A DNA stretch of 63,503 nt from Bacteroidales bacterium (GTDB taxonomy: Bacteria; Bacteroidota; Bacteroidia; Bacteroidales; UBA12170). The notes beneath the pieces were generated by a model. That model searched no databases. It was not told the origin of the DNA and worked only from the letters and a program-made list of their open reading frames with translations. The DNA lies in the NCBI GenBank assembly GCA_016929955.1, contig JAFGHU010000052.1:1-63503 (forward strand), given 5' to 3'. Shown piece by piece: positions 25,553-58,551 of the stretch. The number at the start of each line of letters is the position of its first letter. Positions within the stretch are counted from its first letter, which is position 1. Both the position numbers and the translations under genes were made by a program.

Positions 25553-27337
25553 CTAATAATGATTTCTTTTCTTATAGGTTGTGTGTAATAGACTATGCGA
25601 TACGTGACTAAGTGGTTCCTTTAAAAATTCCTCATAGATTTGAATGATTTCAGGATTTTCGTGTGATTTCCGAATTGGCATATTCATATCTTCTTCATAA
25701 ATAGCAGCAATTCTTTTCTTACGAATTTCTTCGTTTGTGGGAATGGGTTGTCCACCGCCACCAATACAGCCACCCGGACAAGCCATTACTTCGATAAAAT
25801 GATAGGGCGATTGACCGGCAGCAACCTGATCCATAATTTTACGGGCGTTGATTAAGCCATGTGCAACGGCCACTTTTAATTCCACGCCTTCTAAAAAGCT
25901 CCAGGCTGGCAAGCATCCTTCAATAACTATTGAAGCCTCTTTAATTCCTTCCAATCCCCGAACCGGCATAACGTTTAGATTCTCAAAAGGAATTTCTTTT
26001 CCTGTAACCACTTCATATGCTGTACGTAATGCAGCCTCCATAACTCCTCCGGTAGCGCCAAAAATTACACCGGCACCGGTTGATTTCCCCATTATACTAT
26101 CGTAAACACCATCTTCTAATTCAGCAAAATTTAAACCCGCCTGTTTAATCATCAAACCAAGTTCACGTGTTGTTAATCCGGCATCGATATCTCTAAAACC
26201 GCTATCGTGCATTTCGGGCCTATTGGCTTCAAATTTCTTGGCTGCACAAGGCATAATGGCAACACTTACGATATCCTTTGGATCGATTCCTTTTTTCTGT
26301 GCATAATAGGTTTTCGATAAGGCTCCAAACATTTGTTGAGGCGATTTACACGTTGATAAATGGCCCAAATGATCGGGGAAAATATGTTCGATAAATTTTA
26401 CCCATCCCGGAGAGCAAGAGGTTATCATTGGAAGTTTGATACTATTATCCTTGTCAACCAAGACTTTTTTCAATCGTTGCAACAATTCATTGCCTTCTTC
26501 AACGATGGTTAAATCGGCAGAAAAATCGGTATCCAAAACAGAATCAACACCCAGTCTTTTCATAGCCGTAACCATCTTACCTGTAACTCTGGTTCCAACA
26601 GGATAACCAAGCATTTCACCTATCGCTACACGAACAGAAGGAGCAGTATTCATAACCACATGCTTTTGCTCATTACCAATAGCTTCCCAAACACGATCAA
26701 AATAGCGTCTTTCGGTTAAAGCTCCGGTTGGACAGCGGTTAACGCATTGACCGCAATTGGTACAAATAGCCTCATTTAAAGGAAGTTCCATAAAAGTAGA
26801 TATTTTCATATCTTTTCCTTTACCACTCACCGTAAGTGCATTTACATGTTGTAATTCTGCACAAGTTCTAACACAACGCTGACAACGGACGCATTTGCTA
26901 TCGTCTTTTTCTATCGACCAGGAAGATCGATCGATTTCTATATCCGGTTTTAAGACACTTAAGTATCTATTATTATCGATATTATATTCCGCCGAAAGCG
27001 TTTGCAGCTCACAATTCATACTACGGTAACAGGTGGTGCACTGCGTATTGTGTTCTGAAACCAAAAGTGCCACAATATCTTTTCTAGCATTGCGTACTTT
27101 AGGCGTATTTGTTTTAATCACCATGCCTTCTTCTGCAGGTACTGCGCAAGATGCGGACAAGGTATTTCTTCCTTCTACTTCAACAACACAAACGCGACAA
27201 TTTCCGGCAACACACAAATCTTCGTGATGACAAAGTGTTGGAATATGTACATTCACTTTTTTTGCAGCATCTAAAATGGTTTTCCCCTTTTCAATGGCTA
27301 CTTTTTTATTATCTATGGTTAAATTTATTACTGACAT
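25553..27337 (-). CDS. hydA: [FeFe] hydrogenase catalytic subunit (group A, NAD-linked HydA/HndD-like)
   Basis: H-cluster motifs TSCSPGWVK, IMPCAAKKFEA and MACPGGCIGGGGQP; N-terminal 2Fe-2S (CHHEDLCVAGNCRVC) and 2x[4Fe-4S] (CVRCQRCVRTC, CTNCGQCVNRC). Confidence 0.95.
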   Translation of the reverse strand: MSVINLTIDNKKVAIEKGKTILDAAKKVNVHIPTLCHHEDLCVAGNCRVCVVEVEGRNTLSASCAVPAEEGMVIKTNTPKVRNARKDIVALLVSEHNTQCTTCYRSMNCELQTLSAEYNIDNNRYLSVLKPDIEIDRSSWSIEKDDSKCVRCQRCVRTCAELQHVNALTVSGKGKDMKISTFMELPLNEAICTNCGQCVNRCPTGALTERRYFDRVWEAIGNEQKHVVMNTAPSVRVAIGEMLGYPVGTRVTGKMVTAMKRLGVDSVLDTDFSADLTIVEEGNELLQRLKKVLVDKDNSIKLPMITSCSPGWVKFIEHIFPDHLGHLSTCKSPQQMFGALSKTYYAQKKGIDPKDIVSVAIMPCAAKKFEANRPEMHDSGFRDIDAGLTTRELGLMIKQAGLNFAELEDGVYDSIMGKSTGAGVIFGATGGVMEAALRTAYEVVTGKEIPFENLNVMPVRGLEGIKEASIVIEGCLPAWSFLEGVELKVAVAHGLINARKIMDQVAAGQSPYHFIEVMACPGGCIGGGGQPIPTNEEIRKKRIAAIYEEDMNMPIRKSHENPEIIQIYEEFLKEPLSHVSHSLLHTTYKKRNHY

Positions 27338-27356: not shown

Positions 27357-28523
27357 TTAGTAAATCATTTCTTCACGAAAATTCTTCACTATGGAAGAGA
27401 ACGAATTATGAACGGATTGACCTAAACCACATTTCGAGGCTACTTTCATTGTTTCCGTTAACTTTAAAAGCTGATTCAGGTAAGAAATAGGTTTTTCGCC
27501 AAATTTAACAGCTTCAATACCTTTTAAGAGTTGCTGTGTTCCCACTCGACAAGGCGTACACTGTCCGCACGATTCTTCGGCAAAAAATTCTAAATAATCT
27601 TTGAGTACATTATACATCGAGCGCGAAGAATTAAATATCATCATCGATCCACCCGTTGGTACTCCTTCGAATCCTATAATTTTACTGCTAAACTGCTTTC
27701 TGGGAACACAATGTCCGGAGGCACCGCCGATTTGCACTGCTTTCGTATCGCCATTGCCAAATTCTTTTACAAATTCATCAACACCAATTCCGAGTTCCAG
27801 CTCATAAATGCCTGCTTTAGTTGTATCACCCGAAACAGAAAAAACCTTAGAACCCCGAGAATCGTTAGTTCCTAATTTTTTAAAAGGTTCAACACCAATT
27901 CGAATAATCATTGTGCAATAAACCAAAGTTTCTACATTATTAATTATTGTAGGTTTTCCATTGTATCCACTCTTTGTGGGATAAGGAGGTTTGTTTCGGG
28001 GTTCTCCACGCCTACCTTCCATCGATTCGAAAAGCGCGCTTTCTTCGCCGCAAATATAGGCTCCACTTCCAGAGAACATCTTTATATTGAAATCCAAACC
28101 TAATTTTTGAATATTCTTGTTGAACTTATCAATAAGTGGATTTAAATCTTTCAAAAGGAAATTATATTCATTACGCAAATAAATAAAACCCTCTTTAGCC
28201 CCAATGGCATAAGCACATATAGCCATGCCAACTAAAACTTTACTTGGAACAACATCGAGAATTTCGCGGTCTTTAAAAGTCCCCGGCTCTCCCTCATCCG
28301 CATTACAAATCACGTATTTAATATCGCTTTTCTCCTCTTTGGCTAATTTCCATTTTAAACCTGTTGGAAAACCGGCGCCACCTCTACCTTTGAGTCCGGA
28401 ATTAATAATTTGCTCAATTATTTCATCGGGCTTCATAGCCAGCGCTTTTTTAACTACTTCGAGTGGATCGCAATTTGCGCAATCGAAAATGATATCTACT
28501 TTTTTTAACTGTTTTTGATTCAT
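27357..28523 (-). CDS. hydB: NuoF-like NADH/FMN subunit of the hydrogenase (HydB), short form
   Basis: GLKGRGGAGFPTGLKWK, CNADEGEPGTFKDRE, YICGEESALFESMEGRRGEPR and ESCGQCTPCRVGT; 388 aa. Confidence 0.92.
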   Translation of the reverse strand: MNQKQLKKVDIIFDCANCDPLEVVKKALAMKPDEIIEQIINSGLKGRGGAGFPTGLKWKLAKEEKSDIKYVICNADEGEPGTFKDREILDVVPSKVLVGMAICAYAIGAKEGFIYLRNEYNFLLKDLNPLIDKFNKNIQKLGLDFNIKMFSGSGAYICGEESALFESMEGRRGEPRNKPPYPTKSGYNGKPTIINNVETLVYCTMIIRIGVEPFKKLGTNDSRGSKVFSVSGDTTKAGIYELELGIGVDEFVKEFGNGDTKAVQIGGASGHCVPRKQFSSKIIGFEGVPTGGSMMIFNSSRSMYNVLKDYLEFFAEESCGQCTPCRVGTQQLLKGIEAVKFGEKPISYLNQLLKLTETMKVASKCGLGQSVHNSFSSIVKNFREEMIY

Positions 28524-28526
28524 AGC

Positions 28527-29006
28527 CTAGTAATTTATAAGGTGTTTAGGATCAATTTCTCGAATAATTTCAACCGCCCGTTCAGGTGTAATTTGCGGAT
28601 AAACAGTATCATTAATAATCATAACCGGACCTTTATGACACCAACCTAAACAATTACTTTCGATTAAAGTGAAATTTTTATCGCGAGTGGTTTCTCCAGA
28701 TTTAATTTTGAGCAACTTTTCGATCGTTTGCACTATTTCTTGTTTGCCGGCCATTTTGCAGCTTATTGTTTTACAAACCCGAATAATATTTTTGCCCATG
28801 GGTTTCGTAAATAAATACGTGTAAAAAGTAGCCGTTCCATATACTTCTGCCGATGAAATGTCTAAGGCTTTGGCTATTTCTACCATCGCGTATTCAGAAA
28901 GGTAGTTTTCTTTAGCCACTACACCCTGCAAAATAGGCAATAAGCTATTGCGGGAATTCCCATGCTTTTTAACAAGTTCATCAACCAAATTTGTTGTTTC
29001 CACCAT
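28527..29006 (-). CDS. hydC: NuoE-like 2Fe-2S subunit of the hydrogenase (HydC)
   Basis: EVYGTATFYTYLF, CKTISCKMAG and ESNCLGWCHKGPVMIIND. Confidence 0.92.
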   Translation of the reverse strand: MVETTNLVDELVKKHGNSRNSLLPILQGVVAKENYLSEYAMVEIAKALDISSAEVYGTATFYTYLFTKPMGKNIIRVCKTISCKMAGKQEIVQTIEKLLKIKSGETTRDKNFTLIESNCLGWCHKGPVMIINDTVYPQITPERAVEIIREIDPKHLINY

Positions 29007-29019
29007 GACAATAATTTTA

Positions 29020-29037
29020 TTGTTATTTATTTCACAA
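29020..29037. promoter_or_regulatory. Rex-like operator candidate 1 (hydC-proximal)
   Basis: TTGTTATTTATTTCACAA: TTGTTA-N6-TCACAA, 14 to 31 nt upstream of the hydC ATG. Confidence 0.6.
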
Positions 29038-29042
29038 AGATA
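29035..29042 (-). promoter_or_regulatory. candidate -7 box of the hydCBA promoter
   Basis: Minus strand TATCTTTG (TAnnTTTG), between the two Rex-like boxes and overlapping the proximal one by 3 nt. Confidence 0.5.
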
Positions 29043-29050
29043 TTGTTTTA

Positions 29051-29068
29051 TTGTTATATAATTAACAA
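29051..29068. promoter_or_regulatory. Rex-like operator candidate 2 (distal)
   Basis: TTGTTATATAATTAACAA: perfect TTGTTA-N6-TAACAA inverted repeat, starting 31 bp from candidate 1. Confidence 0.62.
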
Positions 29069-29272
29069 TACTACTTTAGGAAACTAAAATTTAAATCTAT
29101 TCTAAATAAGATTACCTTGTATTTATCTGTTTTTCTGTATTTTACAAAATCTATATTTTCTTATTTAGAAATATAAAGACCATATAAATAGCGATTTCGC
29201 AGCAATTATATGCTTGCTATTAATTTTTGAATATACTTGAAAATAAATGGTTTGAATTGTAAAATATCTTTG

Positions 29273-56136: not shown

Positions 56137-58551
56137 TTAGAAAATCTTGGGAAAACGTTGCGGATTAACTTCATTCATCATATTGTAAATGGTCTCAAAA
56201 ACATCTTCGGCATTTGGATTTGAAAAATAATCGCCATCTGTACTGTATGCAGCACGATGATCTTTGGCCGTTAAGGTTCTGGGTTCAGCATCCAAAGAAA
56301 AATAACCGCTCTGTTCTTCCAGCACTTTTTGCATCATAAATGCAGTAGCCCCTCCGGGAACATCTTCATCAAAAAAGAGTACTTTATTGGTTTTATTTAA
56401 AGAACGACCAATAATGCCCGAACGATCAAAAGGCAATAAAGTTTGAACATCAATCAACTCAACATCAATACCATAGGATGCTAATTGTTCAACGGCATCT
56501 TCTGCAATCCGAACACAAGAACCATAGGTTACCAAAGTAATGTCTCTGCCTTGTTTTAAAACTTCAGGCTTGCCCAAGGCCACTCTGTATTCACCTATAT
56601 TAGATGGCCGGCGCTCTTTTAAACGATAACCATTTAGGGGTTCGATAACCAAAGCAGGCTCGTCAGAGGCCAATAAAGTATTGTAAAAACCGGCAGCTTG
56701 CGTCATATTTCGAGGAACACAAACCTGCATTCCGCGTATCGAATTGATAACCATACTCAAAGGTGATCCGGAATGCCAGATTCCTTCTAAACGGTGACCG
56801 CGTGTACTGATAATAATGGGTGCTTTTTGACCTCCTTTTGTACGATAAAGCATAGTTGCAATATCATCGCTCATCACCTGTAAACCATAAAGTAAATAAT
56901 CGAAATACTGAATCTCAGCAATAGGTCGTAAGCCACGAATGGCCATGCCTAAACCCTGGCCAATAATCGTTGCTTCGCGAATTCCTGTATCAAAAATACG
57001 ATGTTCGCCATATTTTTCTTGAAGGCCTTCATAAGTTTGATTTACACCTCCAATTTTACCCACATCTTCGCCAAAAGCAACGACCAAGGGGTTGTTTTGA
57101 TAAATATAATCCCAATTATCGCGTAAAATTTCACGACCGGGAACCCATTTTGCATCATTATCGTATTGAGCAGGACTATCTTTTACTAAGGTTGCTGCAT
57201 CGCTTGTTTGACTATACAAAAACGAATTGTAACGTTCTGCATTTTCCGCCATTTGCTTTTCGAGCCACAGCCTAATATTTGCTTTAAGCGAATGCTCAGG
57301 ATCGCTACACTTATCGCATACCAGCCGCAAAATTTTTCGTGCAGAGGAGATAATGTCTTTGCGAAGAGGCTCTCCCAAAATCGCAAGGTCTTTTTTAATT
57401 TTATCGATATGAGGCGTTTTACTGCAGTGGCAAGTGGCAATATTTGCCACCTCCAAAAAAGCATCACGCTCCTTTTTAATTGGATTTAAATAGGATTTAT
57501 AGGCTGTTTTTTTCGCCTCTTTAGCCCGATTTTTCGCTTGATTTTCAAGCTCATCGAGTTCAGCGGCGCTAGCCAGCTCTTGATCTAAAATCCACATGCG
57601 CATACGAGATATCCCATCATACTCATTTTCCCACTGCAAACGCTCTTGTGATTTATAGCGTTCGTGCGAACCGGAAGTGGAATGCCCTTGAGGCTGAGTT
57701 ACTTCGGTAATATGAAATAATACAGGATTGTGTTCTTTTCGGCAATGGTCGATACCTTCTTTGTAAATTTCGACCAAATGCACATAATCCCAAGCTTTCG
57801 CTTTTAATATTTTAAAGCCTTTTCCCTTATCGTTATTTTCAAAACCACTTAGAACTTCCGAAATATTTTGTTTTGTGGTTTGGTATTTATTTGGAACCGA
57901 AATTCCCCACCCATCGTCCCAAACCGAAATGGCCAAAGGAACTTGCAAAACTCCTGCGGCATTAATTGTTTCCCAAAAATGACCTTCAGAAGTTGAAGAA
58001 TCGCCTATAGTACCAAAGGCAACCTCATTTCCTTTGTTTGAAAAGTGGGTATACTTATGCAAAGCCTTATTTTGCTTGAATAATTTGGAAGTCAGAGCTA
58101 AACCTAATAATCGCGGCATCTGGCCTGCTGTAGGCGAAATATCGGCACTGGAATTTTTCTGTTCCATCAGATTTTTCCAATTCCCGTTGACATCAAGACT
58201 CCGAGTGGCAAAGTGATTATTCATCAATCGACCGCCATTAGAAGGACTGTTTTCAAGATTGGTATCGCCATACAACTGGGCAAAAAACTCTTCGGCTTCC
58301 ATCATTCCTGCCGCCAACATAAAAGTCTGATCGCGGTAATAACCCGAGCGCCAATCGCCTTTTTTAAACACCTTGGCCATAGCGAGTTGCGGAATCTCTT
58401 TTCCATCTCCAAAAATGCCAAATTTGGCTTTTCCGGTGAGTACTTCGCGGCGACCCAATAAGCTTAATTGCCGACTAAGGTTGGCAATATAGTAATCGTT
58501 TAAAACTTCTGATTTATAATCGTTTGTCTGTGTTTTTGTCTTTTTCGTCAT
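56137..58551 (-). CDS. 2-oxoacid dehydrogenase E1, alpha and beta fused (branched-chain type)
   Basis: Alpha half: GTIGDSSTSEGHFWETINAAGVLQVPL. Beta half: VVAFGEDVGKIGGVNQTYEGL, IGQGLGMAIRGLRPIAEIQ. Confidence 0.93.
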   Translation of the reverse strand: MTKKTKTQTNDYKSEVLNDYYIANLSRQLSLLGRREVLTGKAKFGIFGDGKEIPQLAMAKVFKKGDWRSGYYRDQTFMLAAGMMEAEEFFAQLYGDTNLENSPSNGGRLMNNHFATRSLDVNGNWKNLMEQKNSSADISPTAGQMPRLLGLALTSKLFKQNKALHKYTHFSNKGNEVAFGTIGDSSTSEGHFWETINAAGVLQVPLAISVWDDGWGISVPNKYQTTKQNISEVLSGFENNDKGKGFKILKAKAWDYVHLVEIYKEGIDHCRKEHNPVLFHITEVTQPQGHSTSGSHERYKSQERLQWENEYDGISRMRMWILDQELASAAELDELENQAKNRAKEAKKTAYKSYLNPIKKERDAFLEVANIATCHCSKTPHIDKIKKDLAILGEPLRKDIISSARKILRLVCDKCSDPEHSLKANIRLWLEKQMAENAERYNSFLYSQTSDAATLVKDSPAQYDNDAKWVPGREILRDNWDYIYQNNPLVVAFGEDVGKIGGVNQTYEGLQEKYGEHRIFDTGIREATIIGQGLGMAIRGLRPIAEIQYFDYLLYGLQVMSDDIATMLYRTKGGQKAPIIISTRGHRLEGIWHSGSPLSMVINSIRGMQVCVPRNMTQAAGFYNTLLASDEPALVIEPLNGYRLKERRPSNIGEYRVALGKPEVLKQGRDITLVTYGSCVRIAEDAVEQLASYGIDVELIDVQTLLPFDRSGIIGRSLNKTNKVLFFDEDVPGGATAFMMQKVLEEQSGYFSLDAEPRTLTAKDHRAAYSTDGDYFSNPNAEDVFETIYNMMNEVNPQRFPKIF

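Follow-up and report, generated by a model that had tools for sequence, protein, structure and literature searches.

Predicted Rex operators overlap the promoter of an NADH-linked [FeFe]-hydrogenase operon in a Bacteroidales bacterium

The stretch of Bacteroidales DNA analyzed here (the window, 63,503 nucleotides) carries the [FeFe]-hydrogenase operon hydCBA and raises the question of which regulator acts at its promoter. An initial annotation proposed that two palindromes upstream of hydC are operators of Rex, a known sensor of the cellular NADH level that acts as an NADH/NAD+-sensing repressor. It also described the hydrogenase as NADH-linked, and HydA indeed matches the NADH-dependent [FeFe] hydrogenase group A6 family (NF040763) with 868 bits, compared to a cut-off of 765. 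We find that the boxes are most probably operators of Rex, with repression that would be relieved by NADH; among the readings considered, this one accounts best for their sequence, position and distribution. The features discussed below are as follows.

25553..27337, minus strand: hydA, NADH-dependent [FeFe] hydrogenase, group A6
27357..28523, minus strand: hydB, NuoF-like FMN/NADH subunit
28527..29006, minus strand: hydC, NuoE-like [2Fe-2S] subunit, first gene of the operon
29020..29037, minus strand: operator box 1 (putative), reads TTGTGAAATAAATAACAA; about -7 to +11 of the predicted start; conserved in congeners
29035..29042, minus strand: predicted -7 element TATCTTTG (TAnnTTTG); TA..TTTG invariant in the alignment, register enriched
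29051..29068, minus strand: operator box 2 (putative), reads TTGTTAATTATATAACAA; about -38 to -21 of the predicted start
29089..29107, minus strand: upstream palindrome ATTTAGAATAGATTTAAAT; starts 65 nt 5' of the -7 element; candidate Rrf2-family site

The boxes and the predicted hydC promoter

Both boxes lie where they had been annotated (TTGTTATTTATTTCACAA at 29020-29037 and TTGTTATATAATTAACAA at 29051-29068), and the 12-mer said to be common to them, TTTTATTGTTAT, occurs at 29015-29026 and 29046-29057. No other site in the window matches TTGTKA-N6-TMACAA exactly; shuffled sequences have a mean of 0.06 matches per window, and two matches were reached in 1 of 100 shuffles. Because the motif is not enriched in the window when up to two mismatches are allowed (12 occurrences compared to 20 expected), the evidence rests on the exact boxes. 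Box 1 is separated from the hydC ATG by 13 nt.

The annotated minus-strand -7 box, TATCTTTG, is present at 29042-29035. In a map of Flavobacterium transcription starts, TAnnTTTG occupies -12 to -5 (PMC9723704), which places the predicted hydC start at about 29030. Box 1 would therefore span approximately -7 to +11, over the start-site region as proposed, and this register recurs in many promoters. The description of the boxes as flanking the promoter is better replaced by overlap, since the -7 box ends in the same TTG with which box 1 begins. Box 2 does fall near the proposed -33 region, at about -38 to -21 of the predicted start, but its assignment to a -33 element is weak because the TTG that begins it would be separated from the -7 element by a rather long spacer of 23 nt. 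Spacers between -33 and -7 elements usually measure about 19 nt.

The fusion of operator and promoter element is a recurrent arrangement. Across the genus, an offset of -5, at which a single TTG closes the -7 box and opens the operator, holds 34 of the 91 TAnnTTTG elements near 150 site-orientations; because the box itself supplies this TTG, the estimated chance level rises to about 4% of sites (approximately 6 of 150), which is still far under the observed count. Given that the operator typically shares its TTG with the -7 element, the start site would be masked by any repressor bound there. Box 1 is in the position of a repressor site relative to a start that is predicted rather than mapped. 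A scan for sigma-70-type promoters gave no excess over shuffles, as expected for Bacteroidota. An RNA-level explanation was rejected: the region has no Rfam match, and folding of the leader is not superior to that of shuffled sequences (z -0.42).

Conservation of the boxes and distribution of rex

Orthologous hydC promoters retain the boxes, both in an alignment of the genus and at Bacteroidales loci; the initial annotation had named a lack of such conservation as a refuting result. A pair 31-32 bp apart is found in nine of the ten genus genomes with an intact hydC promoter (the window's genome counted), with an upstream copy that is exact in some genomes and deviates by 1-2 mismatches elsewhere; the remaining genome, G009, has its second box 56 bp upstream. 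When nine promoters are aligned, both boxes, the TA..TTTG element and the upstream palindrome all contain invariant positions. Among 79 Bacteroidales hydC loci, which include at least three congeners, 57 have, within 150 bp, a box that deviates at no more than one position (0.85 in shuffles), and 37 have an exact box in that range (0 in shuffles). Two boxes occur at 18 of the 79 loci, 32 or 41-49 bp apart. The annotated spacing of 31 bp between box starts is correct, and its description as three helical turns applies in the genus (31-32 bp) but not to most other Bacteroidales pairs (41-49 bp). Strict helical phasing or looping is therefore not general, and the covering of promoter elements fits all box pairs better than phased looping does. 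One clade (L148, L155, L166, L172, L176 and related loci) has hydC without a Rex-type box and with an AT-rich inverted repeat, AATAATT...AATTATT, instead; the wing of Rex in this clade reads SGSQSKGY.

A rex gene, the presence of which the annotation had made a test of its proposal, occurs once in the genome, on contig C43 (NF003995, 203 bits compared to a cut-off of 126); the genome is a metagenome-assembled genome (MAG) of 2.85 Mb that is 82.5% complete. Its product has the DNA-binding and NAD-binding domains (NCBIfam, Pfam) and is similar to solved Rex structures. When compared to the DNA contacts of Thermotoga maritima Rex, namely Gln46, Arg48, Lys49 and the wing residues Arg60-Gly61 (PMC8836258), it keeps Gln46 and Arg48, has Arg in place of Lys49, and has Leu-Arg in place of the wing pair; the retained Gln and Arg speak for the Rex interpretation and the altered wing against it. 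We found rex in 10 of 11 genus genomes, the eleventh being 75% complete, and in 46 of 50 hydC-bearing Bacteroidales genomes. The four genomes lacking it, two boxed and two unboxed, are too few to decide the matter. That rex was not found in the boxed genomes G030 and G053, which are MAGs of unknown completeness, counts against the Rex interpretation. Each of the 10 rex promoters found in the genus has a box, with 1-2 mismatches, that is fused to TAnnTTTG in the -5 register, compared to a shuffle expectation of 0.017 of ten, and we predict that rex is autoregulated via this degenerate box. An ATGTGA-N6-TCACAT palindrome lies 172-197 bp upstream of a divergent rex paralogue that is 32-34% identical (L207, L216, L226).

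A genome-wide search with the exact pattern, rather than a weight matrix, returned nine sites compared to three for the reversed control pattern. Five are at [FeFe]-hydrogenase genes (two at hydC, two on the contig of a second hydrogenase operon and one at hydG). The remaining four comprise one before mutA, the gene for the methylmalonyl-CoA mutase small subunit, two at crp/fnr-family genes and one on C43 with other neighbours. In the genus at large, the box is found again at hydC, hydG, hydE, mutA and a methylmalonyl-CoA decarboxylase alpha-type gene; further sites include those at genes for an octaheme cytochrome, sulfide:quinone reductase and OsmC, and the gene for a 131-amino-acid protein without a family match has two boxes. 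In boxed, rex-bearing genomes, with G060 left out, the motif occurs 225 times compared to 86 for the control, and four genomes without rex have no excess (16 compared to 13). In the class-wide sample of Bacteroidia with Rex, the motif is not clearly in excess, which counts against the Rex interpretation; this comparison is weak, as Rex scores above the cut-off in just 7 of 192 genomes. G060 itself, the genome of locus L194, has 59 exact boxes compared to 1 for the control, which may reflect either a repeat element or a regulon of very large size. The second hydrogenase operon, of group A6 (L011, G000:C218, 4237-14660), has two exact Rex-type boxes and encodes NuoE-like and NuoF-like proteins, a group A6 HydA, a histidine kinase with an [FeFe]-hydrogenase domain and response regulators.

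Rex and alternative binders

Palindromes rich in A and T could arise by chance within an AT-rich promoter. The boxes do lie in a highly AT-rich neighbourhood, and the pattern in its relaxed form shows no excess in the window; however, exact matches are not expected from shuffles, and the conservation seen in the order-wide comparison refutes a chance origin, which we regard as extremely improbable. The main rival explanation is that the boxes bind a regulator of the Crp/Fnr family and not Rex. CRP-type sites, TGTGA-N6-TCACA, have the same spacing as the boxes, and the genome encodes eight proteins with the cNMP-binding domain (PF00027). Moreover, exact boxes adjoin crp/fnr-family genes on contigs C89 and C126, a real difficulty for Rex, and boxes of congeners lie between crp/fnr and sulfide:quinone reductase genes. 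Yet the intergenic regions beside these crp/fnr genes also hold separate FNR-like palindromes (TTGATATATATCAA, TGATAATTATCA), and the boxes at hydC, hydG, hydE and rex cover the -7 element and start, where a repressor rather than an upstream activator would bind; those at hydC overlap the -7 element and start and the region around -30, not the position of an activator. In addition, the rex promoter is boxed in all ten rex-bearing genomes, and the target set agrees with a Rex regulon tested by electrophoretic mobility shift assay (EMSA). Binding of a Crp/Fnr-family regulator in place of Rex is thus unlikely.

Alternatively, one family of boxes may serve two regulators, with Rex at the boxes fused to the -7 element, including those of hydC, and another protein, perhaps of Crp/Fnr type, near -50. 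Boxes do occur in two positions, either fused to the -7 element (hydC, hydG, hydE, sulfide:quinone reductase and OsmC genes) or approximately 26-30 nt before the -7 box (mutA and mmdA-like genes), and the boxes near -50, at mutA and the decarboxylase gene, might belong to another regulator or another mode of control. The sequences of the two groups are not clearly different by eye, however, and there is no direct evidence for a second binder. We consider such a division possible but doubtful, and were it correct, the interpretation of hydC would stay intact. In the promoters of multihaem cytochrome genes at L006, L102 and L104, an FNR-like TTGATATATATCAA palindrome lies beside a TTGTTA-type box, and at L006 a crp/fnr-family gene is nearby.

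Under the preferred Rex interpretation, Rex dimers would occupy both boxes when NADH is low, covering the -7 element and start site at box 1 and the -33 and spacer region at box 2, and would thereby keep hydCBA off. As NADH builds up, Rex would be released and the NADH-linked [FeFe]-hydrogenase made, allowing electrons to be disposed of as H2. The same design, with the operator on the -7 element, would also serve hydG, hydE and rex in the genus. We infer both the binding of Rex and its response to NADH from the observed sites, their geometry and conservation, the rex gene and the shared targets.

Similar arrangements have been described in other bacteria. In Caldicellulosiruptor bescii, EMSA showed binding of Rex in front of FeFe-hydrogenase genes, hydG and rex (PMC6391272). 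The predicted Rex sites identified here are at the same types of genes, but in a different phylum, with TTGTTA halves common where the C. bescii consensus is TTGTGAANNNNTTCACAA, and with an operator that overlaps the Bacteroidota TAnnTTTG element. TTGTTA-N6-TAACAA is a known form of Rex site, and Thermoanaerobacter and Thermoanaerobacterium share this palindrome form (ATTGTTANNNNNNTAACAAT), with sites predicted at hydG and an iron-hydrogenase operon; the hydrogenase promoter has one site there, compared to tandem boxes here (PMC5886521). A predicted Rex site also precedes an electron-bifurcating [FeFe]-hydrogenase cluster in Caldithrix abyssi, where rex is inside the operon (PMC5317091), whereas here it is on another contig. 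Redox control of the hydCBA promoter is thus very probable, being well supported and not unprecedented. In the literature searched, we found no report of Rex control of a hydrogenase in Bacteroidota. Our analysis contributes a concrete, conserved operator design, in which the operator is fused to a TAnnTTTG -7 element, and a predicted target set.

A second palindrome upstream of hydC

The upstream site, with its candidate regulator, is the more novel part of this promoter compared to the pair of Rex operators. When 8-mers were counted without bias in 76 regions upstream of hydC, both the Rex-type box and ATTTAGAA/TTCTAAAT emerged, the latter found 36 times compared to 3.8 expected. The palindrome, ATTTAGA-N5-TCTAAAT, mostly starts 64/65 or 74/75 nt 5' of the hydC -7 box, positions that are one helical turn apart, and in mutA promoters it starts 63-65 nt 5' of the -7 box. 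At both genes it is in phase with the -7 box. The pattern WTTTAGAATNNNNNTAWAT exceeds its control across the genus as a whole. A second copy in the window (minus strand, 58568-58550) overlaps the start of a fused dehydrogenase E1 gene (56137-58551), and the palindrome also precedes other genes of 2-oxoacid and proline catabolism, as judged from their translations only.

NsrR is a protein of the Rrf2 family. ATTTAGA-N5-TCTAAAT has a 7-N5-7 dyad equal to that reported for the NsrR site (PMC1274295), and perhaps it is an Rrf2-family site. Most copies of a gene of the genus for a 132-amino-acid Rrf2-family protein, not found in the window's genome (an incomplete MAG), carry one or both halves of the palindrome, which suggests that this gene may be autoregulated through it. 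We tentatively propose, without yet holding it to be probable, that hydrogenase promoters in Bacteroidales read two sensors. NADH would act via Rex operators in the -7 element, and the palindrome would be the activating site of a self-regulated Rrf2-family protein, which would also read it at genes of 2-oxoacid and amino-acid catabolism. The two inputs would evolve separately: a Bacteroidales clade without a Rex-type box at hydC, which would have lost that box, retains ATTTAGA-N5-TCTAAAT at 65 nt.
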